From positions 1 to 56,940 of the IMG/VR virus record IMGVR_UViG_3300032093_009193: a stretch of DNA of 56,940 bases; one strand, written 5' to 3'. Made by a program: the position numbers and the translations under genes. The notes under the pieces were generated by a model that saw only the letters and a program-made list of their open reading frames with translations, ran no database searches and was not told the DNA's origin. Below, piece after piece: positions 10,780-34,816 of this stretch (the first letter of the stretch is position 1; each line of letters starts with the position of its first letter). Source of the DNA: a virus.

Positions 10780-11444
10780 TATATAATACCTTTGTTGGTG
10801 TAGTAAGTATTTTTTGCAGAATTTCCAATAATTTGTTCTTTATTCTGCCCCATGTCTATTAGACCTCTTATTTTTGAATCTCCATCCGAAATACCCATCA
10901 CAATCACAGCATCATCTTTATTGTAATTTGAATCAGCGAATAGACAAAAATTAGATCCAACTAAACCAATTTCAATCTGAATTTCTTCCAAAACTTCCAA
11001 CATAATTTCGTGATCAAAAAACTTTTTTTCATTTTTTAAATAATACTCGCACTTTTCAATCCATTTATTGATAAATTCAAATGATTTTTCATTTCCACTT
11101 AAATATATTGGAGATGCCTTTGGAATAAAATTTCCCTTTTCATTTATACTATTAGTGGCAAAAACAACATCAGAATTTATATTTTCAAACATATCAAGTT
11201 TTTTATAAACATAACTGTCAATGTCTAGCCAAATAACTGGACCGTTAATTTTTTCCATACACTTTAGTATAAACGAAGGTTTATATAAACAATTAGATCT
11301 ATAAGAACCTCTTGATGTAATTTCTTCAACATAATATGGCATATTTAATTTTTGCATATTTTTAATAAAATGAAATGCATGTGAAGAATAATAAGTATTA
11401 TTTGTATCTACATCGCAAAAGTATGATATTACTGTAGTTTTCAT
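10779..11444 (-). CDS. DXD-type nucleotide-sugar transferase-like protein, copy B
   Basis: A 221-aa protein homologous to its upstream neighbour (11441-12124). Both share SxGSYRSNCLxKPxFIL near 45-60, a WLDID metal motif (residues 72-76 here) and KASPIYL/V followed by a DHEIM/DHEVL box. The combination is that of a GT-A sugar transferase. It probably arose by tandem duplication, and divergence suggests the two act on different substrates. ATGA overlap with the upstream copy. Confidence 0.6.
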   Translation of the reverse strand: MKTTVISYFCDVDTNNTYYSSHAFHFIKNMQKLNMPYYVEEITSRGSYRSNCLYKPSFILKCMEKINGPVIWLDIDSYVYKKLDMFENINSDVVFATNSINEKGNFIPKASPIYLSGNEKSFEFINKWIEKCEYYLKNEKKFFDHEIMLEVLEEIQIEIGLVGSNFCLFADSNYNKDDAVIVMGISDGDSKIRGLIDMGQNKEQIIGNSAKNTYYTNKGII

Positions 11445-12124
11445 GATTGTACTAAAAATTTATTTCCTGGGCATTGAAATCTTATATTATTTTCATCAAA
11501 TCCCATTTTTCTAAGAGATTCTTCTTTTGATTGACCATCGGCCAATCCCATAGTAATTATTGGCTCCCCACCAATAACCTGCAAACCAGGCCAAACGCAA
11601 TAAGCATTACTTAAACATGCCATCCTAATGCCTGTATTTTCTGTTATAATTTTATTAAAAATACCCATTAAGACCTCATGGTCAAACATAGTATCTCTCT
11701 GACTTTCCACCTGTTCGCTCGCTTCTATCCAAGCATACATGAATTCTAATGTCTTTGGTGTATAGTTAACATAGATTGGAGAAGCTTTTGGTAGAGCTAT
11801 TGATGGATCTTCTTTTGTTGGAACCTTTGGAAAGGCAAATCCAACATCGACTTTATCTTTAAATTCATCAAAAACATCTAATGATTTATGTACTATAGAA
11901 TCTATGTCTAGCCAAACTAATGGCTTTCTAAATTCATTCATCATATCTAAAATAAATCTAGGTTTTGACAGACAATTGGATCTGTAAGATCCTTTTGATT
12001 TTTTCTCCCTTATTATGTGGGGAATTCCTAAATTATCTAAATTTTTAGTTAATCTTTTAGAGTGATCGCTATAATAGGTGCGACCATCAACATCAGAATA
12101 AAAAGAAATCACTGGAGTTATCAT
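11441..12124 (-). CDS. DXD-type nucleotide-sugar transferase-like protein, copy A
   Basis: A 227-aa protein that is paralogous to the next gene downstream. It shows ISFYSDVDGRTYYS at the start, GSYRSNCLSKPRFIL near 45-59, LVWLDIDS near 69-76 with the DXD metal site at 73-75, LPKASPIYV and a DHEVLMG box. An exact TATAAATA lies 7 nt before the ATG, overlapping the end of the GT10 gene, so a nearly leaderless late transcript is possible. Donor and acceptor unknown. Confidence 0.6.
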   Translation of the reverse strand: MITPVISFYSDVDGRTYYSDHSKRLTKNLDNLGIPHIIREKKSKGSYRSNCLSKPRFILDMMNEFRKPLVWLDIDSIVHKSLDVFDEFKDKVDVGFAFPKVPTKEDPSIALPKASPIYVNYTPKTLEFMYAWIEASEQVESQRDTMFDHEVLMGIFNKIITENTGIRMACLSNAYCVWPGLQVIGGEPIITMGLADGQSKEESLRKMGFDENNIRFQCPGNKFLVQS

Positions 12125-13813: not shown

Positions 13814-14761
13814 TTAACCTTTAAACTCACATGTCATCATAATTTGAACCATGCAAGCCATTAAATGAATTTCTAGGTCTGCTACTCGGCTCATATCCTT
13901 CTGATACTCCCCAAGTATCAGAATAGCCTGTGGAATGCTAGAAGGGCTTAAACAGCCGTATAGGCTGTCATAAAGCTTTCTAATGACATCGGTTTCAGAG
14001 AGGTGGGAATTGGTGACAATCCACTTTCTAACTTCTGGCAAATTCTTTGTCTTCAAAAATCCAATTAAATTCTTAATTTGCTCCTCTGTGATATTCATCA
14101 ATATTCCAGAGTCAATCGTACCAGACACGCCATATCTTTGAAGTTCATTCAAAATTCTACGCATATCTGGAAAATATTTCATAATAAGTTGACTTAAAAT
14201 CTTCTTATCGCATGAAATGTTTTCGTTCTTAAGAATATCCATGCAGCGATCCATCATCTCAGCCGCAATGGATGCTTTTTCAGAAACTGGAATATTAAAG
14301 TCAATACAAGTACAGCGAGAGTGAATAGGCTCAATAATTCTCGACTTATAGTTGCAAGTTATAATGAATCTACAGTTTTTTGAAAATTCTTCAATTGCAC
14401 CCCTCAAGGCTGGCTGAATACTTTGTGCATTTGAATAATCAAACTCATCCAAAATTACCACTTTCTTTGTATCGTGGAATGAGACTGTACTCGCAAATTG
14501 TCTGATTTTTGTTCTGAGGGTATCGATATTTCCGTCTTCAGAACAGTTAATCATGATCCAATCGCAATTCAATTCATTACACAAAGCCTTGGCTACTGTC
14601 GTCTTTCCAGTTCCAGCAGAACCTGATAATAGTAGATTTTGTGGCTCCTTTTTAGCAACCATGTCCTTGAAGGTTTGCTTCAAGGACTTTGGTAGGATGC
14701 ATTCTTGAATTGTTTGTGGTCTGTACTTCTCTACAAACAAAAATTCTTTAGAATTTGTCAT
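13814..14761 (-). CDS. 44: Clamp loader large subunit, AAA+ ATPase (gp44)
   Basis: A 315-aa AAA+ protein of normal length. It shows Walker A GSAGTGKT at 47-54, Walker B VVILDEFD at 101-108, the sensor-1 region ITCNY and the SRC motif at 148-150 that supplies the arginine finger in clamp loaders. It assembles with gp62 to load the gp45 clamp at primer-template junctions in an ATP-dependent way. It lies between 45 and 62, co-directional with 3-6 bp gaps. Confidence 0.95.
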   Translation of the reverse strand: MTNSKEFLFVEKYRPQTIQECILPKSLKQTFKDMVAKKEPQNLLLSGSAGTGKTTVAKALCNELNCDWIMINCSEDGNIDTLRTKIRQFASTVSFHDTKKVVILDEFDYSNAQSIQPALRGAIEEFSKNCRFIITCNYKSRIIEPIHSRCTCIDFNIPVSEKASIAAEMMDRCMDILKNENISCDKKILSQLIMKYFPDMRRILNELQRYGVSGTIDSGILMNITEEQIKNLIGFLKTKNLPEVRKWIVTNSHLSETDVIRKLYDSLYGCLSPSSIPQAILILGEYQKDMSRVADLEIHLMACMVQIMMTCEFKG

Positions 14762-14764
14762 TTT

Positions 14765-15451
14765 TTATTCCGTATAGTAAGAATCTGGCTCCATTGCAAA
14801 CCAATACCTAAGATTAATGTTTTGATTTTCAAACTGCCCAGCAATATTCTTTGAGAAGGTTACCTCATAATCTCCAGGAAGAAGGCGAATATTCTCAATC
14901 TTGAAGTTTAGTGAAAACTCAGCCCCATTGCTATCCCCCTCCAATTGCACCTTGTAACTATTGCTAGTCGGATCTTTCATATCAGATAGATGGGCGTAAA
15001 TATTAGAACCATCGCTAATAAATGAAAGATCTGGCAATTGGAGAACAGAAGAAATTCTATGAAGTTCATTGAATAGTCCATCTGGAATCTGAGTCGTGAC
15101 ACTCATGCTTGGCATATTTACAGTCTTCTGTGGATATGTTAGAAGCCTTGGTTCAGAATAGTTGTACTTGACTACAGAACCATTTGAACCCGTAATGCTT
15201 ACGCTCTTCTCACCAAATTCAAATTGAGGATTGTTAAACAAACTTACAAGTCCTAAAAACTTGTTCAGATCCCAAATTCCAAATTCAACATCAAAAGTTT
15301 CCTCAATGACTGCCTCAGCCATTCCACTTTTAGATGGGGTAATAGTTTTAATAACATTTCCTGGCTTCACAAGAATGTTTGAATTCATAGAAGCAAAGTT
15401 TTTAAGAATCGATAAAGTTGTTTTGCTGATTGTAATAGATGTAGATGTCAT
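14765..15451 (-). CDS. 45: DNA polymerase sliding clamp (gp45)
   Basis: A 228-aa protein equal in size to T4 gp45. It begins with TLSILKNFASMNSNILVKPG, has an acidic FDVEFGIWDLNKFLGLVSLF segment in the first domain and ends with LRYWFAMEPDSYYTE, typical of the trimeric T4-type clamp. It holds the replicative polymerase on DNA and acts as the moving activator of late transcription together with gp55 and gp33. GGTGA lies a few bases upstream of the ATG. Confidence 0.93.
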   Translation of the reverse strand: MTSTSITISKTTLSILKNFASMNSNILVKPGNVIKTITPSKSGMAEAVIEETFDVEFGIWDLNKFLGLVSLFNNPQFEFGEKSVSITGSNGSVVKYNYSEPRLLTYPQKTVNMPSMSVTTQIPDGLFNELHRISSVLQLPDLSFISDGSNIYAHLSDMKDPTSNSYKVQLEGDSNGAEFSLNFKIENIRLLPGDYEVTFSKNIAGQFENQNINLRYWFAMEPDSYYTE

Positions 15452-15471
15452 AAATCACCATTGTATCAAAA

Positions 15472-15651
15472 TTATTCAAAGTCGTCAAGATCGTCTTCAT
15501 CCAAATGGCTATAGTCGCCACTGACGAAATTCTTCAACTTATTTTTATATTCATTTCTTTCTGAAGATTTTTCACGATCCTTGATGCCACGATCATAAGT
15601 TTTAACTGTTTTTTTGTGTTCGCCTTTTCCGTTTTTATCTTTCTTTGACAT
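15472..15651 (-). CDS. Small protein with basic N-terminus and acidic C-terminus
   Basis: A 59-aa reading frame fills the gap between 45 and the 106-aa gene. The first half is very Lys/Arg-rich (SKKDKNGKGEHKKTVK), and the last dozen residues are acidic and hydrophobic (SHLDEDDLDDFE). GGGTAAAA precedes the ATG at 15651. Co-directionality and tight packing support a real gene. The acidic-hydrophobic tail beside the clamp gene is reminiscent of clamp-binding tails of T4 late co-activators, but length and sequence do not allow an assignment. Confidence 0.65.
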   Translation of the reverse strand: MSKKDKNGKGEHKKTVKTYDRGIKDREKSSERNEYKNKLKNFVSGDYSHLDEDDLDDFE

Positions 15652-15660
15652 TTTTTACCC

Positions 15661-15981
15661 TTATAATTCTACCCAAATTAGACCACTCTCGTCAAGTACT
15701 CTTGTAAACAATCTACCAGATTGTCTATCCAACCACCTATCTCCTTCATTCGTGTTTTGTGGTTCAAGAATACTATAATAAAATCTAGACGATATCTCAA
15801 ATTCTTTCCAAGCACTTCCTATGGTTTTTGGTTGAATTCCAACTATAACATCAGTTGCAATATATTTTTTATTCTCAAAATCTACAACATCACCAGTATA
15901 GTATGTGCTGACATTTCCATTCTTGTCGTATTTTCTGTAAATTCCTCTTAGGTTTACATCTTCTGGTTTATACTCAATCAT
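15661..15981 (-). CDS. Small fibre/carbohydrate-binding-module-like protein
   Basis: A 106-aa protein of two modules. Residues about 10-60 read like a CBM5/12-type module (GIYRKYD, YYTGDVVDFENKKYIATD, AWKEF). Residues about 72-106 match the repeat common in marine phage fibres (EGDRWLDRQSGRLF, then a WVEL end). It would normally be part of a long fibre, yet here it stands alone between 46 and 45. Its ATG overlaps the gp46 stop (ATGA). It may be a small virion decoration protein or a displaced fibre fragment. Confidence 0.6.
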   Translation of the reverse strand: MIEYKPEDVNLRGIYRKYDKNGNVSTYYTGDVVDFENKKYIATDVIVGIQPKTIGSAWKEFEISSRFYYSILEPQNTNEGDRWLDRQSGRLFTRVLDESGLIWVEL

Positions 15982-17687
15982 CCTACCATCCTGCTAAAGT
16001 TATTTTTCTTTTCAAACTGAAGAACGCTTGTAAATTTATCTACTATTTGATCCGCTTTATGGCTGATCACAAAAACATTTGAATTATTGTTGCCTAGAAT
16101 ATTTAATAGTTTCATTACTTCTTCAGTTCCACCAGCATCTAGAGAAGAATCAAAAACTTCATCCAAGATAAGCAAATTGCAATTTACACTATTCTTCATT
16201 CTTGCGATATCTCTCCAAGCCAATAGAAGTGATAAATCTATTCTCATTTTTTCACCTTCGCTGAAGTTCATGTAAGAAAACTCGTCCCGATTTCTACTTT
16301 TAATCGATTCATTGAATTCTTCGTCAAGGAAAAACTGAACAAAAAAATCCATAGATTTTAAATACTTATTAATATTCTTGTTCATTGCTGGCAAGTAATA
16401 TCGAATTATTTTAGACTTGACACCACCATCTTTCAACAGGGTATAAGCATATTCATAATTTATCAGATCTTCTTTTTTATCTTCTTTTTCAATAATAAGC
16501 ATGTTTAATTCTTTTTCCATCTCAGAAAGTTTTATTTTTTCTTTTTCTACTTCTACACTTTCGTCAGAATCTATGCTTATCTTTGATTTTAAGTTGTCCA
16601 AAGATATTTTGATGGCATACGCTTGTTTTTCAAACTCTTGAATTTTTCCATCAATATTCTTATTATATTCCCTGTCTATATTTATATTTGAGATTAAATT
16701 TTCAATATTTTTAATATTTTCCTGAAATTTAGCGTAGGCAGTATCTATAGTTTTTAACTTTTCAGTCAATTCTAAAATATTTTTATTTTTTGTTTCTTCT
16801 GTTATCTTACCCTTGCATTTTTGGCAAATTTCTTCTTTATCGTAAAAAGAAAGTTCATCGATTATTGTTTCCTTTTTACTTTCCAACTGAGATATTAATT
16901 TGTTTAATTTATTTAATTCTTTCACATTATCGGAATAGACAGTCTCATCTATTTGTTTTTTAGTTGAATTTTCTTTCTCTATCTTATCTAATAATACTTT
17001 GTAATTATTTGTCTTTTGTTGTATCTCAGTTTTAATTTCTTCAATATTTGAAGAACTTTTAGTTTTGTTTATAATGATTTTTTGATATTCTATTTTTTGA
17101 TTCTGTAAATCAATTTTGTGAGAAATATCTTTAAGATTTTCTTTACACTCGGTTGTTTTAGTTTTTAGCAAATTATTCATTGTCGTAAAAACATCTATGT
17201 CCAATATATTTTCAATTACAGATCTTCTGTCTGATGCTGTTAATTGCATAAATGGTATAAAGGAAGAACTTCCAAGTATTACTACCTGACTAAATGTTTT
17301 GAAATTCATCTTCAAGATTTGTTTTTCCAACAAATCTTGGTAATCCGAAGACTTAGCATCCTGATTTAGCATTTTGTCATTTTTGAATATTTCAAATATC
17401 TTTGGATTCAATCCTCTGCGGATTTTATATTCATCATTTCCTATTTCAAAAAAAATCTCAACTATACTTTCTTTGCTATTGATTGAATTCTGCAATTGTG
17501 GTATGTTGATTTTTCTAAAAGGTTTTCCAAAGAGTGCGAATGTTATAGAATCTAGAAGTGCAAATGACTTCCCACTTCCATTGCTCCCACAAACTAATGT
17601 TGTTGGAGATTTTGTTAATTCTAGTTCAGTAAACCTATTTCCAAATGACCCAAAGTTTTTAAATCTTATCTTCTTGAATATTATCAT
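15978..17687 (-). CDS. 46: Recombination endonuclease subunit, SMC/Rad50-like ATPase (gp46)
   Basis: About 569 aa from the ATG at 17687 (MIIFKK); an upstream ATG at 17711 would extend into the small gene next door. Walker A GSNGSGKS is at 34-41, a zinc-hook CQKC lies midway in a long Lys/Glu-rich coiled coil, the ABC signature is FSEGEKMR, and Walker B LLILDEVFDSSLD precedes the switch His (VISHKAD). With gp47 it resects DNA ends for recombination-dependent replication and takes part in host DNA breakdown. All catalytic motifs are intact. Confidence 0.95.
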   Translation of the reverse strand: MIIFKKIRFKNFGSFGNRFTELELTKSPTTLVCGSNGSGKSFALLDSITFALFGKPFRKINIPQLQNSINSKESIVEIFFEIGNDEYKIRRGLNPKIFEIFKNDKMLNQDAKSSDYQDLLEKQILKMNFKTFSQVVILGSSSFIPFMQLTASDRRSVIENILDIDVFTTMNNLLKTKTTECKENLKDISHKIDLQNQKIEYQKIIINKTKSSSNIEEIKTEIQQKTNNYKVLLDKIEKENSTKKQIDETVYSDNVKELNKLNKLISQLESKKETIIDELSFYDKEEICQKCKGKITEETKNKNILELTEKLKTIDTAYAKFQENIKNIENLISNINIDREYNKNIDGKIQEFEKQAYAIKISLDNLKSKISIDSDESVEVEKEKIKLSEMEKELNMLIIEKEDKKEDLINYEYAYTLLKDGGVKSKIIRYYLPAMNKNINKYLKSMDFFVQFFLDEEFNESIKSRNRDEFSYMNFSEGEKMRIDLSLLLAWRDIARMKNSVNCNLLILDEVFDSSLDAGGTEEVMKLLNILGNNNSNVFVISHKADQIVDKFTSVLQFEKKNNFSRMVG

Positions 17688-17787
17688 TATTGATAACCTT
17701 TTCTGGCACAATCATGGATCTAAATTTTATTTTTTGTTCAGTATCTTCAACAAAAAGATAATCATCTGCTGTTTTTTCTTTGTTCAT
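17659..17787 (-). CDS. Small protein between 47 and 46
   Basis: A 42-aa reading frame (MNKEKTADDYLFVEDTEQ at the start) whose ATG overlaps the gp47 stop (ATGA). It ends 28 bp inside gene 46 in another frame, after the gp46 ATG. It fills precisely the space left between the two genes and so is probably translated by coupling. No family is recognised. It is acidic/basic mixed, with no Cys or membrane segment. Confidence 0.6.
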   Translation of the reverse strand: MNKEKTADDYLFVEDTEQKIKFRSMIVPEKVINNDNIQEDKI

Positions 17788-18830
17788 AATGACATGCTTT
17801 CTATGTAGAGATCTTTTATTATGGTTTTAACTTTTTCTTTATTTTTGATCTGTTCGGTGTTGTCTATTTCTTTTGCTATGATTGTCAGCGTATCTTGTGT
17901 GACATCAACATCATCTTCTTTTTCTTGTTGATTGTCAAGATCCTCTATTATAGTAAATTCTTGAGGCTCGTTTGACAGAATATAATCGACATATTGTTCA
18001 AACTTTTTCTGTCTTTTTTTGTTGATAACCACTAATTTTATATAACAATTCTTAATAGACTCTGGGTTTAATTTTTCAACCTCATTGTCAGTTGAATCGT
18101 CATATTTCAAAACATGGAATATTTTTCTAGTATTTTCTATAAATTCCAATTCCCGTGTTTTGGTATCCAATACAGTGAATCCCTTTTTACAATTTATATC
18201 TCCAAAATTCATCTGATACTGCGATCCGAGATAATGAATATTGCCTCTTGATTGCCTTATATGAAAATGACCAGATAGAACTTTATCAAACTTATTGAAC
18301 ATCTGCTCATCATTTCCAGAAGAGTGCTTTATTCCAGTAATAATCTCAAAACCATTAATCTCAAAATGTCCAACCAGTATTGAGGCTGATGTTGAATTTA
18401 TAAATGAATAACAAAGATCCTCATTGTCTTTGGTTATCCACGGAACTAATCCAAGCTTTAATCCATCCAAATATAATTCTGTTGGATTTTCAATTATATT
18501 AAAATTATCATAAAAAGAAAATAATTCTTTTATAGAATTAATTGCATTTGTATTTTTAAAATAAGTATCGTGGTTGCCGATAGTTAAATAGACATTTATA
18601 TCATTGTCTTTAAAAAAAGATGCAAATCTTTTATGAATCTGATTGAGTGTGAAAAAATTCACATATTTTCTTCTATCCAATAAATCGCCCATGTGAATCA
18701 CATGTCGAATCTTATTTTCTTTAAGATATGGAAAAAATACATTTTCAAAAAAACTCAAAGATTCCTCAAGAAAAAAAGAAGCATCATTCTTATACCCGAA
18801 ATGGGTATCGCTAATTATAGCAATTTTCAT
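17784..18830 (-). CDS. 47: Recombination endonuclease subunit, Mre11-like phosphoesterase (gp47)
   Basis: A 348-aa metallophosphoesterase. Motifs are ISDTHFGYK (residues 6-14), HMGDLLDRR near 45-53, TIGNHDTYF near 83, VGHFEI near 157 and SGHFHIRQ near 190, the five metal-binding blocks of the Mre11/SbcD family. It forms the nuclease with gp46. The start overlaps the gp55 stop (ATGA). Residues 280-310 form an acidic linker (QQEKEDDVDV) before the C-terminal helix that probably contacts the gp46 coiled-coil base. Confidence 0.94.
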   Translation of the reverse strand: MKIAIISDTHFGYKNDASFFLEESLSFFENVFFPYLKENKIRHVIHMGDLLDRRKYVNFFTLNQIHKRFASFFKDNDINVYLTIGNHDTYFKNTNAINSIKELFSFYDNFNIIENPTELYLDGLKLGLVPWITKDNEDLCYSFINSTSASILVGHFEINGFEIITGIKHSSGNDEQMFNKFDKVLSGHFHIRQSRGNIHYLGSQYQMNFGDINCKKGFTVLDTKTRELEFIENTRKIFHVLKYDDSTDNEVEKLNPESIKNCYIKLVVINKKRQKKFEQYVDYILSNEPQEFTIIEDLDNQQEKEDDVDVTQDTLTIIAKEIDNTEQIKNKEKVKTIIKDLYIESMSL

Positions 18831-19372
18831 TTCTTTTTCTTTCTTTTTCTCTTTCCCTTTGCTTCTGTTTCTTTTTCTAATTTTTCTAAATCATGCTCTG
18901 ATAAGAAAAAATTTCTCTGAATAAATTCGGATAGAGTCGCAGATTCATTGTTTTCTCTCAACCATTCAGTATACTTTGAATCTATATCATTATGCTGCAT
19001 ACACTTATATTTTATATAAGCTTGTTTTTTTTCTTTATCTATTCTTCTAAGAAAAGCATAATATATTATTTGTGTAAAGTATGAGAATGGATTTTCCGAT
19101 TTTTGATCATCGAAGTTATGTGCGTATTGTAGGCAGTTTTCCACCCCATCGCTAACCATATCTTCTCTAAATGGGTAGTTTATGAAATTAGGTCTTCTTG
19201 ACAATCTATCTGCTATTTGATAAAAACAAAGACCAATATAATCAGTCACTGGTGGCATTGGCTTGTTTTTTAATTTTGCTTCGTTTACAATGATTTTCCA
19301 TTTGTTCATTGCAGACAAAAATTCATCGTTATCAACATAATGTTTGTCTTTTTTCTTTTCTGCTTTGCTCAT
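18827..19372 (-). CDS. 55: Late-transcription sigma factor (gp55)
   Basis: About 181 aa from the ATG at 19372 (MSKAEKK), preferred over one at 19387 because the sigma70-like -10 box overlaps the latter. The core DYIGLCFYQIADRL, PFREDMVSDGVENC, NPFSYFTQIIYYAFLRRI and DKEKKQAYIKYK is the gp55/sigma region 2 signature that recognises TATAAATA late promoters. The C-terminus is a Lys/Arg stretch (KGKRKRKKKK) rather than the hydrophobic-acidic clamp-binding end described for T4 gp55. Confidence 0.93.
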   Translation of the reverse strand: MSKAEKKKDKHYVDNDEFLSAMNKWKIIVNEAKLKNKPMPPVTDYIGLCFYQIADRLSRRPNFINYPFREDMVSDGVENCLQYAHNFDDQKSENPFSYFTQIIYYAFLRRIDKEKKQAYIKYKCMQHNDIDSKYTEWLRENNESATLSEFIQRNFFLSEHDLEKLEKETEAKGKRKRKKKK

Positions 19373-22123: not shown

Positions 22124-22690
22124 TTAAATAGTATAATCTTTCAATATATCAAAATGTGTATAGTTAAAAATGACAGATGCAATAACTGGATCTGTATCTG
22201 GTGAAGTTACATCAAAATCCAAACCAGACAAAAATGATGGAAATATATTGTAATACTTAAATGATATTATTGGTCTATAATTATTATTTAAAATTAAGAG
22301 AATAGCACTTGATGTCTTATGAATTTCACTTAATCTCTCTTTATTATTTACCCACGGTGCTATTTTTTGCATCCAATCTAATATCTCTTTGTAATTTACC
22401 ATATTCTCATCAACTGGAAAACTTAACTGTATATCTTCGACAATATATCGATTTCCAGGTCTTACCATTTCTATTCCAGTTGGAGTAGATTGAATTGATT
22501 GACCTAAACTCAAAGATGGTAAATTTACTCTCTGAGCAAAGTATGTTACAGTTGGACATCTGCTTAAAATAAAAATAAATTTATTTTGTAATAGATAATT
22601 TCTATTTTCTGGAATCACTGGATTTTTTGCTAAGAAATCTCCAGGTAATTCTTTTTTGATATCGTCTGGTATATTGCTCGGATTGAACAT
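22124..22690 (-). CDS. 3: Tail-tube-fold protein, probable tail completion protein (gp3-like)
   Basis: A 188-aa protein with FIFILSRCPTVTYFAQRVNLPS, a GIEMVRPGNRY loop, then VEDIQLSFPVDENMVNYKEILDWM and a C-terminal strand VIFNYTHFDIL. The LPG..VxDxxLxFxVDExxxNYxEIxxWM pattern is that of tube-fold proteins. In marine T4-like phages I recall the gene between 23 and uvsY being annotated gp3, the protein that caps the tail tube. A divergent gp19 paralogue is the alternative. A late promoter ends 5 nt before its ATG. Confidence 0.6.
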   Translation of the reverse strand: MFNPSNIPDDIKKELPGDFLAKNPVIPENRNYLLQNKFIFILSRCPTVTYFAQRVNLPSLSLGQSIQSTPTGIEMVRPGNRYIVEDIQLSFPVDENMVNYKEILDWMQKIAPWVNNKERLSEIHKTSSAILLILNNNYRPIISFKYYNIFPSFLSGLDFDVTSPDTDPVIASVIFNYTHFDILKDYTI

Positions 22691-22695
22691 AATAG

Positions 22696-22703
22696 TATTT
22701 ATA
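22696..22703 (-). promoter_or_regulatory. T4-type late promoter, leaderless
   Basis: Minus-strand TATAAATA followed by CTATT and then the ATG at 22690. With the box at -13 to -6, transcription would begin on the A of the start codon. It directly abuts the T-rich tail of the gene 23 terminator. Confidence 0.65.
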
Positions 22704-27125: not shown

Positions 27126-27391
27126 TATTTTCTCCTAATTCTTTTATTATTTATTTTTTTAAGTTTTTCAAGATATTCTTTAAAAAATGAAAATAGGGTA
27201 TTTTTATTTGATAAAATAGGTTTAATATTCTTATAATTTGGCCCAAAAACAGTAGAAAGTATATTAATTTGTTCTGGGGTTATGTTTACAGATTCACTAT
27301 TTCTCAAAAATAAATTTATACCTCTTTTTTCTCTTTTTGGATTTTTTAATAAAGATACTATTTTTTCTCTTTCATGAAAGTATATTTTCAT
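27125..27391 (-). CDS. Small basic protein in the gene 67 position
   Basis: An 88-aa, strongly basic protein (KNPKREKRGINLFLR, KLKKINNKRIRRK at the C-terminus). It sits between the portal and gp68-like genes where T4 encodes the acidic core protein gp67, but its charge is opposite, so homology is doubtful. It overlaps both neighbours by 1-4 bp and is very likely translated. It may bind DNA or the acidic core protein next to it. Confidence 0.5.
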   Translation of the reverse strand: MKIYFHEREKIVSLLKNPKREKRGINLFLRNSESVNITPEQINILSTVFGPNYKNIKPILSNKNTLFSFFKEYLEKLKKINNKRIRRK

Positions 27392-28983
27392 TGGTTAGTC
27401 TTTTGTTTTTGATCTGCTGTTCCCTGATCAGCTTGAGCCGTTAAACTAGACGCTTGAATTGCTTGTTGCTGCGCCTGAGCCTCCATAGCCATCTGCTGCT
27501 CCTCAGAAATCTGCTTATCAATTTCTTCCATAACATCATCAGATTGCTTCAGAATATGTTTTCTGATATATTTTGTTGAGAAATACTTACCTTCATAAGA
27601 AGATAATACATTTAACATATCTACCTTTTCCCTCAACAATTCATTTTCTTTCAATTCATTGAAATATGAATCTTTATTGTAGACGAAATTGATATCCTGG
27701 TATATTTTTTCCCAATCGTTTAGGGTAATAATTCCCTTCAACAATAGTTGTTTTTTCAAAACATCCAAGAATAACATAGAGAATTTGCTTCTCAATCTTT
27801 CAATAAACTTGAAAAATTTAACCTCATCTCTACTGATTTCTGTGGTTCTTCCCATATTGAAACCACTATTTGATTCAAGTCTAGAAATAGGAACATTCAA
27901 AGCTCTATATAATTTTCTTTGTAAATAGTCAACATCATCCATCTGTCCAAGATTCTGTCCACCATCCAGAGTAGCTATTTCTGTTCCCTTTCCACCATCT
28001 CTTCTAGGAATCCAGTAGTCTTCAAGCATTGTCAAATGCGCTCTATCGTCTTTGATTTCACCAGTTTTTTGATCATATACAAGACGATTCCTATAACGAT
28101 TCATCAACTCCCTCATATATTGTTCGGCTTTTTGTTTTGGAAGATTGCCGATATCAATATAAAAAATTCGTCTCTCTGGTGCTCTGGTCATTCTATAAAT
28201 GACAACAGCATCCTCAATCTGACGAAGCATGTTTAATGGGCGAATGGCTTTGTGTAGGTATCCGATTACTCTCTTGGTATTGGAATCGATCAATCCAGAA
28301 TGCACATAGGAGATTGAATCAACCGCAATTTTTAAACCAGAACTATTCGTTTGTATGATTGCATCTGGATCAAGATCGGTATAAAGAAAATATTCTTCAA
28401 GACTTTTAATTATTGGTGTTTGAACGCCATTAATTACTTTATTTTCTTTATTTACCTTTCTGATCTTTTTAATTTTCATTGGGTCGATCAGGCGAATTTC
28501 TTGTATTCCCTTTTCTGGTCTAGTATCATCAATAATAATATGAAAATACAATCTAGCATCTATGTACCATTTTCTAAAAATGTCATAGCCGTGATGATTA
28601 AATTTTAATAGTTTTAAAATATTTTTAAATTCTTTGTGTATTTTTTCTTTTATCTGTGGTGATAAACTTTCAACATTTTTCAAATCTAAAAATATAGCAT
28701 TATTATCGTGGTCAAAAACTATAGATTCGTTAATTATATCTTCTATAGCCATATCAACTTCTGGATATAGAGCCATTGATCTATACTGTGAAAGTTGAGT
28801 ATTTTCATCTCTTATAGAGCCGCCGAAATCATATACTGTAGAAAAAAAACCACCACTTTCTACAGTAACAGTTCCATCGTAGGTATCTGGCGGTACAAAG
28901 GATGATTGTGTCTCTACAGCATTTCCATCTGTAGAATTTTTATCATCCTGCTTTTTGCCGAAAAGAAATCCATATAAATTCAT
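27388..28983 (-). CDS. 20: Portal vertex protein (gp20)
   Basis: A 531-aa portal of T4 type (T4 gp20 is 524 aa). Landmarks include EVDMAIEDIINESIV near 73, a wing region IRLIDPMKIKKIRKV, YRMTRAPERRIFYIDIGNLP, then GTEIATLDGGQNLGQMDDVDYL and LYRALNVPISRLE. The C-terminal tail is Gln/Ala-rich. Twelve copies form the DNA gate at the head vertex and nucleate prohead assembly. A late promoter ends 5 nt before the ATG. Confidence 0.95.
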   Translation of the reverse strand: MNLYGFLFGKKQDDKNSTDGNAVETQSSFVPPDTYDGTVTVESGGFFSTVYDFGGSIRDENTQLSQYRSMALYPEVDMAIEDIINESIVFDHDNNAIFLDLKNVESLSPQIKEKIHKEFKNILKLLKFNHHGYDIFRKWYIDARLYFHIIIDDTRPEKGIQEIRLIDPMKIKKIRKVNKENKVINGVQTPIIKSLEEYFLYTDLDPDAIIQTNSSGLKIAVDSISYVHSGLIDSNTKRVIGYLHKAIRPLNMLRQIEDAVVIYRMTRAPERRIFYIDIGNLPKQKAEQYMRELMNRYRNRLVYDQKTGEIKDDRAHLTMLEDYWIPRRDGGKGTEIATLDGGQNLGQMDDVDYLQRKLYRALNVPISRLESNSGFNMGRTTEISRDEVKFFKFIERLRSKFSMLFLDVLKKQLLLKGIITLNDWEKIYQDINFVYNKDSYFNELKENELLREKVDMLNVLSSYEGKYFSTKYIRKHILKQSDDVMEEIDKQISEEQQMAMEAQAQQQAIQASSLTAQADQGTADQKQKTNQ

Positions 28984-28988
28984 ATTAC

Positions 28989-28996
28989 TATTTATA
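28989..28996 (-). promoter_or_regulatory. T4-type late promoter for gene 20, leaderless
   Basis: Minus-strand TATAAATA, then GTAAT, then the ATG at 28983. The predicted +1 coincides with the A of the start codon, as for the gp3-like gene. Confidence 0.65.
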
Positions 28997-29000
28997 TAAA

Positions 29001-29537
29001 TTAGATTGCGAATTCTTCAGCATAATCATATGCTAATGTTAAAACAAAATCTGCAATTGAGTCTGGTATATCATTATTTAATTCTATTGGTGTCATTTCT
29101 ATTGGATAGCAATTTGATAAAACAACTCTTTTACCGAAAGTATTTCCGTCTTCTGTATCATAATAAATTTCCCATTTAGAGGTCGGAAAATAATCCATAG
29201 CTGTATGGTCTGGGGAGTTGATTCTATCCATCCAAGACATCAATTCACTTCTCAATTGAATTCCTAACTCGGATGAACAATAGATGTTCATGCTTATTTC
29301 TTGAAATACTCTTTCTGCTGGAAATTTAATTTCCCTACCTCTATAATTTATGGGAACAGTTCCTATTGTTGATCCAGGAATTTGAATAGATTTTATATAA
29401 ACTTCAAGTTTTCTTGACTCATATGGATTTGTACTTAACTGTGAAAAAGAACCATTGAATAGAGGAATCTCAGCAAAAACTCTAAATCTATTTCCAGCTA
29501 CAGGTCTAAATCTAACTCTAAATTCATCTAAATTCAT
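29001..29537 (-). CDS. 19: Tail tube protein paralogue 3 (gp19 family)
   Basis: A 178-aa gp19-family protein, the most divergent of three in tandem. It keeps the start DEFRVRFRPVAGNRFRVFAEIP, the loop IPGSTIGTVPINYRGREIKFPAER and the end PIEMTPIELNNDIPDSIADFVLTLAYDY. gp19 hexamers stack to form the inner tail tube inside the sheath. The start overlaps the previous copy (ATGA). Loss of the WEY end and the altered C-terminal strand suggest a specialised ring position or minor component. Confidence 0.82.
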   Translation of the reverse strand: MNLDEFRVRFRPVAGNRFRVFAEIPLFNGSFSQLSTNPYESRKLEVYIKSIQIPGSTIGTVPINYRGREIKFPAERVFQEISMNIYCSSELGIQLRSELMSWMDRINSPDHTAMDYFPTSKWEIYYDTEDGNTFGKRVVLSNCYPIEMTPIELNNDIPDSIADFVLTLAYDYAEEFAI

Positions 29538-30118
29538 CTCAAGTATTCCCAGTAAAGGTAATTAAAAGTAACTGTAAATTCTGCAAATGTATCTGGGTTA
29601 TCGTAACTAAATTCTATTGGACTTATTTCTATTGGAAAAACATCATAGAATTTTATCTTTTTTCTATACTGAGCTGGGGTAGTAGTAACATTTCCTGTTA
29701 CTCTTTGAACTTCTACGGTTGGTGTTGTATTTCCACTAGATTTTTGATCCTGATAATGAAATTCCCAGAAAAAATCGGTGTTTACAACATTATTAGTTTC
29801 ATGAGTTTTTCGAGTATCCATGTACTCTATCCAATCTTCAAATAAATTTCTTAATTGAACATATGGAGACTCATACACTTGTATTGTCCATGGAGAATAT
29901 GATCTATCTCCAGGCAATCTTACTGCCCTACCACCATGCCCAACAGAAACAGTTCCTATTGTTGAGCTTGGCATTGAAGCAGCTTTACAATAAAATTCCA
30001 TTTCTGTTTTTTCGTAACCAGAATATGCAGTAATAACGGGAAAAGAGCCAACGACTTTGAATCGATTGGCCCTATTTCCTACAAACTCATCTCTAAATGT
30101 AGAGATAGACTGAGACAT
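29534..30118 (-). CDS. 19: Tail tube protein paralogue 2 (gp19 family)
   Basis: About 194 aa from the ATG at 30118, which overlaps the previous stop (TAATG); an ATG at 30139 would overlap coding sequence by 22 bp. It begins ISTFRDEFVGNRANRFKVVG, has SMPSSTIGTVSVGHGGRAVRLPGDRSY and ends PIEFSYDNPDTFAEFTVTF with YLYWEY. It differs from paralogue 1 mainly by an insertion around residues 110-150 (QDQKSSGNTTPTVEV). Confidence 0.87.
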   Translation of the reverse strand: MSQSISTFRDEFVGNRANRFKVVGSFPVITAYSGYEKTEMEFYCKAASMPSSTIGTVSVGHGGRAVRLPGDRSYSPWTIQVYESPYVQLRNLFEDWIEYMDTRKTHETNNVVNTDFFWEFHYQDQKSSGNTTPTVEVQRVTGNVTTTPAQYRKKIKFYDVFPIEISPIEFSYDNPDTFAEFTVTFNYLYWEYLR

Positions 30119-30660
30119 TAAACTCCTTGGTATTCCCAATAATCATAGGTGAAGGTAACAGCAAATTCTGCAAATGTGTCTGGAGTATCATAGCTAAATT
30201 CCATTGGGCTTAACTCTACTGGGAAAGCATTGACCAATTTAATTTTTCTTTGATAATCGTTTACTCCACCATCAACATCATCACCACTTACATCTTGCTC
30301 CATGTATTCAACAGTTATGTAATCACCACCACTCGCTGGAATATTTGGTCTAATATCTAGAGTATTTCTACCATTCATTCTTTCGATCCAAGCTTCGATA
30401 TCGCCACGAATATCTTGTCTTGGTGAATCATAAATTTGAACAAGCCAATCAGCATATGTTCTTTCACCAGAATATTTTACTGGCCTTCCTTTGTAACCTA
30501 CTGGAATAACTCCAATAGCTGATCCAGGAATTGTTGCGGCTTTGCAATAGAATTCAAATGTCGCTGGAGCTACTGAGCTTCCAGGAAATTGACATGAGAC
30601 TTTAAATCTATTTTGTCTTACGCCAACAAACTGTGTTCTAAATTCATTTAATGTTGCCAT
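30118..30660 (-). CDS. 19: Tail tube protein paralogue 1 (gp19)
   Basis: A 180-aa protein, close to T4 gp19 (163 aa). Key segments: LNEFRTQFVGVRQNRFKVSC, TIPGSAIGVIPVGYKGRPVKYSGERTY, a YDSPRQDIRGDIEAWI helix and the end PMEFSYDTPDTFAEFAVTF with YDYWEY. It directly follows the sheath gene as in T4 and is the best candidate for the bulk tube protein. Confidence 0.9.
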   Translation of the reverse strand: MATLNEFRTQFVGVRQNRFKVSCQFPGSSVAPATFEFYCKAATIPGSAIGVIPVGYKGRPVKYSGERTYADWLVQIYDSPRQDIRGDIEAWIERMNGRNTLDIRPNIPASGGDYITVEYMEQDVSGDDVDGGVNDYQRKIKLVNAFPVELSPMEFSYDTPDTFAEFAVTFTYDYWEYQGV

Positions 30661-30671
30661 TTATTTTTTCC

Positions 30672-31883
30672 TTATAGGGTTGATGATAAATCTTTGTTAG
30701 TGAAGGTTAGTCTTACGAAGTTGATTGATGGGATTGGTTTAACTAAGATATCAGCAACGAATGTCTTGGCTTCGATTATTTCTGGGGTGTTATTTGTTTC
30801 ATCGCAAATAATCTTATACTCAGAAATTCCTCTCTTGGCTACGACATCTGCTAGAACTGAATCGGCAGCACTGATAAACAGATTTCTGGTTATCTGATCA
30901 TTTTGTTCGAATAGCACACCTCTTGCGATTGGTGCAATTGTTTTCTTTAGGTATATGAAGAGTCTAGCGACATTGATTCCACTAAGAGTTGAAGTTCCAG
31001 TGTATAGAGTCTTATCTCCCCAGAGTAGAATTCCTTCACCAGGAACATTAAATATTGGATTGATTCTTGCCCCATATAGGGTGCTCTTATCTGCTTCTGA
31101 CAAATATCTTGTTGTGGAAACAGCGTTTGCAATTCTTCCTCTTCTTGCTCCAGCTGGGGAGAACCAAGGATATGATTCTCTGTCTGTTCTTGCAATGCAA
31201 CCAGCAACATCTGGTGCTAGAGAACTGATAATTAGATTTGCTGGATCTCCTGCAACATTGAAATGTTTCTTCTCACCAAATGCAGCAGCAGCATATTGTG
31301 CTGAGGTTGGTGAAGATGTAACAGTCATGGCTCCAGTTATAGTTGTTCCAGAATGCACAGCTAAAACTCCAAAAACTGGATTTGGTGTAGATGCTCTTTC
31401 GTCAATCATGGAAGAAACATAAGCATTATGTGCTGGAGTTCCCCCATTTCCTGTAGAACCAGAGAATACAACATCAATGTCAAGATACTTGAAGTCCATA
31501 GTTGCACCAGAATCTTGCCATGTTACATAACATGGTGCTCCATATTGAAGGAAGTTGTGAACATGATACCATTCATCAGTCCATGCGGTAGCACCATTGG
31601 TTAAAAGATCTCTAGCGGCTAGAGTAGCACCGTTGGTTCCAGAAAAACCTGGGTAGTTATAATTATAAAATGAAGTCAATCTAGCAAACCAATCGGCTAG
31701 ATTTTCAACATAGTAATATCCTTGTTGTGCTTCAGTTCCAGTTGGCCCATTATAGGCAAATAATTTCATTGAGTGGTTTCCAGGTAGTCCTAAAAACCCA
31801 CCTATTGTGGGTGAGTCTAGCTCTGAATTTGAAACTACCAATGATTCGTCTAATATTCTTACAGTTACGCCTGGATATGGCAT
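30672..31883 (-). CDS. 18: Tail sheath protein (gp18), short form
   Basis: A 403-aa sheath protein, much shorter than T4 gp18 (659 aa). The start PYPGVTVRILDESLVV is the usual linker strand, GNHSMKLFAYNGPTG follows, and the C-terminal core is clear: LSGINVARLFIYLKKTI, FEQNDQITRNLFISAADSVL, then PIPSINFVRLTFTN. The conserved contractile core and linker arms are kept, while the outer protruding domains of T4 appear absent. AGGAG precedes the ATG. Confidence 0.9.
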   Translation of the reverse strand: MPYPGVTVRILDESLVVSNSELDSPTIGGFLGLPGNHSMKLFAYNGPTGTEAQQGYYYVENLADWFARLTSFYNYNYPGFSGTNGATLAARDLLTNGATAWTDEWYHVHNFLQYGAPCYVTWQDSGATMDFKYLDIDVVFSGSTGNGGTPAHNAYVSSMIDERASTPNPVFGVLAVHSGTTITGAMTVTSSPTSAQYAAAAFGEKKHFNVAGDPANLIISSLAPDVAGCIARTDRESYPWFSPAGARRGRIANAVSTTRYLSEADKSTLYGARINPIFNVPGEGILLWGDKTLYTGTSTLSGINVARLFIYLKKTIAPIARGVLFEQNDQITRNLFISAADSVLADVVAKRGISEYKIICDETNNTPEIIEAKTFVADILVKPIPSINFVRLTFTNKDLSSTL

Positions 31884-34072: not shown

Positions 34073-34816
34073 TTAATTCTCATAGTAGTATATTCCACTT
34101 CCAGTTATAGAATCTCCAGTATATCCAACATCGTAAACCAAAGCTGATGGGGCTGTAGTTAGACCATTGTAAATTCTTACATTTGCATTTTCTATGATCA
34201 TAGAAATATTTCTCTTAATATGACCATAGAGATAGGTTTTCATTGTAAAGTTAAAGACCGTGGTTACTGATCTTCTGGTAGAAAAATCACCCTCGTAATC
34301 TTCAGATGTGCTTATATCGTTCAAGACAATAGGAACATCTATTGCCTGATTTATTGTGTTGTAGTTGATCGACAAATTGAATTCTGGTTGAAAGTATGGA
34401 GCAATTTGCTCTATAATTTGTAGATTGTCTTCCAGAGATCTTGTAAATGAATACAGATTTATATTGATATTATATGGTATTTCCATATATGTTGTATCTG
34501 TATAGTTTTCAGTGGATAATCTTTTCTGTATCATTCTATTTAATTTTCTAGTAGGATCATATAGAATGTTGATTATCTCATAGCCTAATCTTGGATATGT
34601 TGCCTGTATGTGTGTCTTATCAGTAACGCCAGTTTCGGTTGTCAGTCTATAGATAAACTTCTCTTTTGGACCATAGACGATTGGAACTTTTATCTTTGAA
34701 GTTATCTCATCTTCTGAGTCTTTTCTCAAGATGGTTATCTGATTAAATAAAGATCCAAAAGCAACTATGCTTTTTCTCAGAGTTTCATTGTAATAGGCAT
34801 TTGTCTCTCCAAACAT
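34073..34816 (-). CDS. 15: Tail sheath stabiliser (gp15)
   Basis: A 247-aa protein resembling T4 gp15 from the start (FGETNAYYNETLRKSIVAFGSLFNQITILR) through KVPIVYGPKEKFIYRL and TYPRLGYEIINILYDPTRKL. gp15 forms a hexamer on top of the tail that joins it to the neck. It overlaps gene 14 (TAATG). Confidence 0.87.
   Translation of the reverse strand: MFGETNAYYNETLRKSIVAFGSLFNQITILRKDSEDEITSKIKVPIVYGPKEKFIYRLTTETGVTDKTHIQATYPRLGYEIINILYDPTRKLNRMIQKRLSTENYTDTTYMEIPYNININLYSFTRSLEDNLQIIEQIAPYFQPEFNLSINYNTINQAIDVPIVLNDISTSEDYEGDFSTRRSVTTVFNFTMKTYLYGHIKRNISMIIENANVRIYNGLTTAPSALVYDVGYTGDSITGSGIYYYEN

Follow-up and report, generated by a model that had tools for sequence, protein, structure and literature searches.

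T4-type tail tubes are usually pictured as stacks of a single protein, with the tape measure setting their length. Phages with several gp19 genes are already known, and the closest described cases are Campylobacter phages. CP220, CPt10 and vB_CcoM-IBB_35 (Firehammervirus, Eucampyvirinae) are related to T4 and have three gp19 homologues as well as separate gp3 and gp48 genes. CP220 has three genes each for gp19 and gp18, and two or more types of either protein were present in mature virions (PMC2853527). Two gp19 types were detected there by protein sequencing; whether different types mix in a single particle was left undecided by the authors (PMC2853527). Mass spectrometry of IBB_35 virions identified three gp19 proteins, three gp18 proteins and gp3 (PMC3322345). 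Three clustered tail-tube genes whose products share 24-29% identity have been described in the Vandenendeviridae (Pseudomonas phages Adele and JG004), with functional specialisation proposed (PMC12846349). The tail tube of SPP1 is composed of gp17.1 and gp17.1* in a 3:1 ratio (PMC8718954); these two tube-protein forms come from one gene via a ribosomal frameshift and build a non-contractile tail.

Here we describe a tandem array of three gp19-type genes, of separate origin, in an uncultivated phage lineage. It lies in a 56.9-kb IMG/VR virus record, the whole of which is called the window below. The window carries T4-type genes on the minus strand in the order gp13-gp14-gp15-gp16-gp17-gp18, the three tube genes, gp20 and head genes, gp23, gp3, uvsY, uvsW, gp55 and gp47. 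This order was set against those of T4 and P-HM2, and gp20, gp23, uvsY and uvsW were named from it; Mosig and P-HM2 have the order in common. The array is preceded by the gp18 tail sheath gene (30672..31883, minus strand; PHROG_23, E 1e-52; Pfam Phage_sheath_1C), which codes for 403 aa versus 659 in T4. Its downstream border is the gp20 portal gene (27388..28983, minus strand), which follows gp19 in T4 and cyanophages too, and the gp15 tail terminator/sheath stabiliser is encoded at 34073..34816 (minus strand; Pfam T4-gp15_tss, E 7e-60). The short sheath is not isolated, as most relatives of the same group have sheaths of 400-470 aa. Between positions 1 and 15500, the genes mostly have no PHROG match among those scanned, and they include a methyltransferase-like and a nucleotide-sugar epimerase-like gene.

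An earlier note on this DNA had pointed to three gp19-type genes where T4 has one, and open reading frames coding for such proteins were found in all three places. P1 (30118..30660, minus strand) codes for a canonical gp19-type tail tube protein of 180 aa, P2 (29534..30118, minus strand) for a second, P1-like protein of 194 aa, and P3 (29001..29537, minus strand) for a third of 178 aa, which belongs to a derived paralogue class common to neighbouring phages. All three are full length, lie between gp18 and gp20, and match the tail-tube family PHROG_45 (E 2e-34, 4e-36 and 1e-22, respectively). The P2 start was taken as the ATG at 30118, the program-called TTG at 30139 being less likely. P1 and P2 overlap by 1 bp at the P1 stop (TAATG), and P2 and P3 by 4 bp at the P2 stop (ATGA), in agreement with the overlaps of 1-4 bp reported before.

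Pairwise identities are 43% for P1/P2, 33% for P1/P3 and 27% for P2/P3. A profile built from relatives, with the window left out, scored P1 at 181, P2 at 172 and P3 at 139 bits, and none of 250 shuffles per sequence reached 9 bits. Mixed profiles matched T4 gp19 at E 1e-30 and 4e-29. P2 alone matched it at E 5e-9 over residues 30-97, and the P3-class profile did so at E 5e-12, with no gp54 or gp3 match. With the Pfam gp19 model, the scores of P1-P3 stay below the model cut-off. Of the two shared motifs claimed previously, PDxxAxF is present in all three proteins, whereas GTVPxxxxGR is exact in P3 alone (GVIPVGYKGR in P1, GTVSVGHGGR in P2), so that the common motif reads G[TV][VI][PS]xxxxGR. 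AlphaFold models of P1 (pLDDT 80) and P3 (pLDDT 85) have the tail-tube beta-sandwich fold with a flanking helix. The top matches of the P1 model were the KP1 and T4 tail tubes, which also ranked first for P3, the T4 tube being best. TM-scores were moderate (0.60 to 0.71), and the models therefore back the fold, not fine detail.

Three further IMG/VR contigs carry the same array. One of them differs by one single-nucleotide polymorphism (SNP) over 10.8 kb and the remaining two do not differ, so the array is no assembly error; all three frames are intact in the four contigs. The SNP, found in contig L002 (IMGVR_UViG_3300031951_003235), is the non-synonymous change S75Y in P2 and might be a sequencing error. 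By sequence, P1, P2 and P3 are confirmed as gp19 homologues in a real tandem triplication.

T4 gp19 belongs to the same family, shares the fold and is likewise encoded between gp18 and gp20, but T4 has a single copy. The window's phage resembles the Firehammervirus phages in having three gp19 homologues and separate gp3 and gp48 genes. In CP220, by contrast, the copies are dispersed (at 41.5, 56.7 and 157.5 kb) and there are three gp18 genes; the Campylobacter gp19 copies also fall apart from those of the window in the tree. The Vandenendeviridae share a cluster of three tube genes with the window but have a different tail family, and none of the JG004 open reading frames in a 40-kb stretch gave a gp19-profile match at E 10. 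Campylobacter phage PC14 (Fletchervirus) carries a pair of neighbouring gp19-like genes (E 1e-36 and 2e-22). This pair, however, adjoins baseplate genes instead of lying between gp18 and gp20, and falls outside the window's clade.

Relatives were found with gp20 as the query. In 97 related IMG/VR contigs that span gp18 to gp20 completely, a single gp19 copy is found in 42, two copies in 51 and three in 4, two of these four being from the window's own population. Since close relatives have one or two copies, gp19 must have duplicated repeatedly. In a tree of 81 tube proteins, P3 groups with the downstream copies of five relatives (L010, L012, L013, L016 and L017; support 100/99), and P1 lies among the upstream copies of the same five. 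Its nearest neighbour by path is the L010 copy, a pairing without strong support in this tree and supported at 98/92 in a smaller one. P2 forms a long branch close to the P1 class, and a wider search for its relatives returned none beyond the window's population (identical or 99%). Topology tests rejected a sister relationship of P2 and P3 (p=2.5e-4) and did not separate a position of P2 next to P1 (p=0.43) from one inside the P3 class (p=0.41). Further duplications map to L037-45, L116, L128 and the common ancestor of L058-86 and L137-164, and one origin for all downstream copies was rejected (approximately unbiased [AU] test, p=6e-5). The phylogeny, which the earlier note had proposed as a check, indicates that gp19 duplication is lineage-specific and recurrent, with several separate events.

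That copies arose several times, were kept and diverged suggests that a single kind of tube subunit does not suffice for some contractile tails. A lineage with one, two or three gp19 copies provides a comparative set for asking why, and these uncultivated relatives widen a feature known by experiment mainly from Campylobacter phages. In a phage collection, P1 had matches at 2123 places (2072 records) and P2 at 2276 places (2151 records). Extra detectable copies, gp3 included, are therefore uncommon in that collection, the figure being a bound at the search sensitivity used and not a census. In the L137-L164 relatives, two or three tube genes are accompanied by a tandem pair of sheath genes for proteins of about 390 and 435 aa (e.g., L137:9645-10820 and 10799-12115, with 29% identity). 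At least two tubes were present in all 14 two-sheath contigs counted, which come mainly from one group.

A composite tube is, we infer, the likeliest use of the triplication, and more than one protein probably goes into the tube. We assign a probability of roughly 55% to the reading that P1-P3 are gp19 paralogues expressed from one message and assembled into a single composite tube. P1, likely the main subunit, would make up the majority of hexameric rings that stack from the gp48/gp54 platform to the gp3 cap. P2 would resemble P1, be specific to this lineage and co-polymerise with P1, and P3 would be a specialised minor subunit, probably forming whole rings at a defined place. The mixed rings or special end rings envisaged by the earlier note are made more plausible by the presence of several gp19 types in virions of Campylobacter phages (PMC2853527, PMC3322345).

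Substitution patterns in six phages bear on these roles. In both the P1 and P3 classes, dN is lower than dS in all pairs with a dS estimate, a signature of purifying selection, the ratios being rough because dS is mostly saturated. The P3 class is less conserved by identity in 14 of 15 pairs and usually faster, and 40 invariant columns are kept in all six phages. P3 belongs to an older, faster-evolving class with conserved residues of its own. At nine diagnostic positions, the P1 class and the P3 class each have a conserved state that differs from that of the other; single-copy relatives mostly have the P1 state at these positions, and so does P2 at seven of the nine. Six of them fall between P1 residues 43 and 65, and enrichment in the stretch 43-69 is modest (p=0.014). 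The AlphaFold monomer model of P1 has strands at 47-56 and 59-69, which may correspond to an inter-ring hairpin by comparison with the long beta2-beta3 loop that makes inter-ring contacts in tail tubes (PMC8718954). It is because conserved P3 differences include positions in this hairpin-like stretch that whole P3 rings at a defined place are proposed. The enrichment was absent in three other duplicated groups, and hairpin-focused divergence as a general rule was dropped for that reason.

Alternatively, P1, P2 and P3 may be interchangeable and mix randomly in rings, the copies being kept by dosage or drift with no dedicated positions. This would be compatible with the identity of P1 and P2 at most diagnostic residues, with copy numbers that range from 1 to 3 among relatives, and with the question of mixing inside one CP220 virion having been left open (PMC2853527). 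Against it, the P1 and P3 classes maintain distinct conserved residues in six phages, and the duplication common to the L058-86 and L137-164 groups was retained in both. We consider random mixing unlikely, though worth serious attention. Rather doubtful, too, is a more ordered form of the composite tail, in which tube paralogues would occupy defined segments and, in two-sheath relatives, each tube type would pair with its own sheath type; stiffness or triggering could then vary along the tail.

The divergence of the copies might also reflect defence avoidance. DSR2 recognises phage tail tube proteins (PMC11087589), and a diverged copy could escape tube-sensing systems of this kind or serve as a decoy. 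P2 and P3 are indeed strongly diverged, and the sole SNP in 10.8 kb relative to another sample changes P2. However, dN is on average lower than dS in both the P1 and the P3 class, and P1, if sensed, would still be present, which makes this explanation improbable.

A fourth tube-fold gene (22124..22690, minus strand) codes for the gp3 tail-tube terminator of 188 aa, which is 37% identical to P-HM2 gp3 and is found in the synteny gp23-gp3-uvsY-uvsW. It matches PHROG_45 at E 3e-30, and its best solved match is the T4 gp3 chain (E 2e-7). The gene is nearer gp3 than gp19, and its earlier description as gp3-like with a tube fold holds. Contig G001 (54.2 kb) shares 187 bp with the window's right end and 14.2 kb of tail module, with 100% identity. 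Past the window end, it carries gp48 (PHROG_230, E 3e-8), gp53, gp25 and a gene for a 201-aa tube-like protein, located between a gp26-type hub gene and gp4. We call this protein gp54-like because a similar protein occupies the same neighbourhood in Synechococcus phage S-H38; the label is based on synteny and fold family, and the protein's tree position is unreliable, with a very long branch. Separate gp48 and gp54-like genes are present on contig L171, where gp48 was recognised via PHROG_230; the Pfam tail-cap model (gp48) had no match in six large records. On L171, a 1612-aa open reading frame (13996-18834) lies between gp53 and gp25, a place where gp5 might occur. The window's phage has six tube-fold or tube-platform genes versus four in T4. 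As T4's other tube-ring roles are filled by gp48, the gp54-like protein and gp3, P2 and P3 are surplus.

This arrangement makes it very unlikely that P2 or P3 has assumed the end-ring role (baseplate initiator or terminator) of gp54, gp48 or gp3. Such a takeover would be in line with the tube fold that gp54 and gp3 have in common and with P3 being derived relative to P1. Yet gp3 is present in the window, gp48 and the gp54-like gene are carried by sister contig G001, which is identical to the window in all parts compared, and the P3-class profile matches gp19, not gp54 or gp3. Neither P2 nor P3 is nearer gp54 or gp48 than gp19, and their assignment as gp54, gp48 or gp3 was rejected, those roles being held by separate genes, which argues that P2 and P3 do not replace the end-ring proteins. 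That P1 alone is functional, with P2 and P3 as recent relics en route to loss, is highly improbable: P2 has no relatives outside the window's population, but the three frames are intact in four contigs and the P3 class keeps its invariant columns in six phages with dN below dS.

Expression of a composite tube from one message would be consistent with the gene overlaps, from which the earlier note had concluded that the three proteins are made together. Joint production is likely on this basis; equal amounts are not, since the Shine-Dalgarno sequence of P3 is weaker than those of P1 and P2. The predicted duplexes are -6.2 kcal/mol for P1, -8.0 for P2 (at a spacing of only 3) and -4.2 for P3. 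In the five relatives, the Shine-Dalgarno sequence of the upstream copy is stronger in three, nearly equal though slightly weaker in L010, and tied in L013. Codon use differs weakly (P1 -0.10, P2 -0.20, P3 -0.19; SE 0.04) and was set aside as a sign of expression.

A T4-type late promoter core, TATAAATA, is found before gp20 (28989..28996, minus strand), 5 bp upstream of its start. No exact TATAAATA precedes gp18, P1, P2 or P3 in the window, where its 14 exact occurrences versus 13.2 expected represent no excess over chance. At 22696, 24202, 25173, 28989, 43424, 13417 and 12132 (minus strand), TATAAATA lies 5-21 bp before the starts of gp3, gp23, gp22, gp20 and three other genes.
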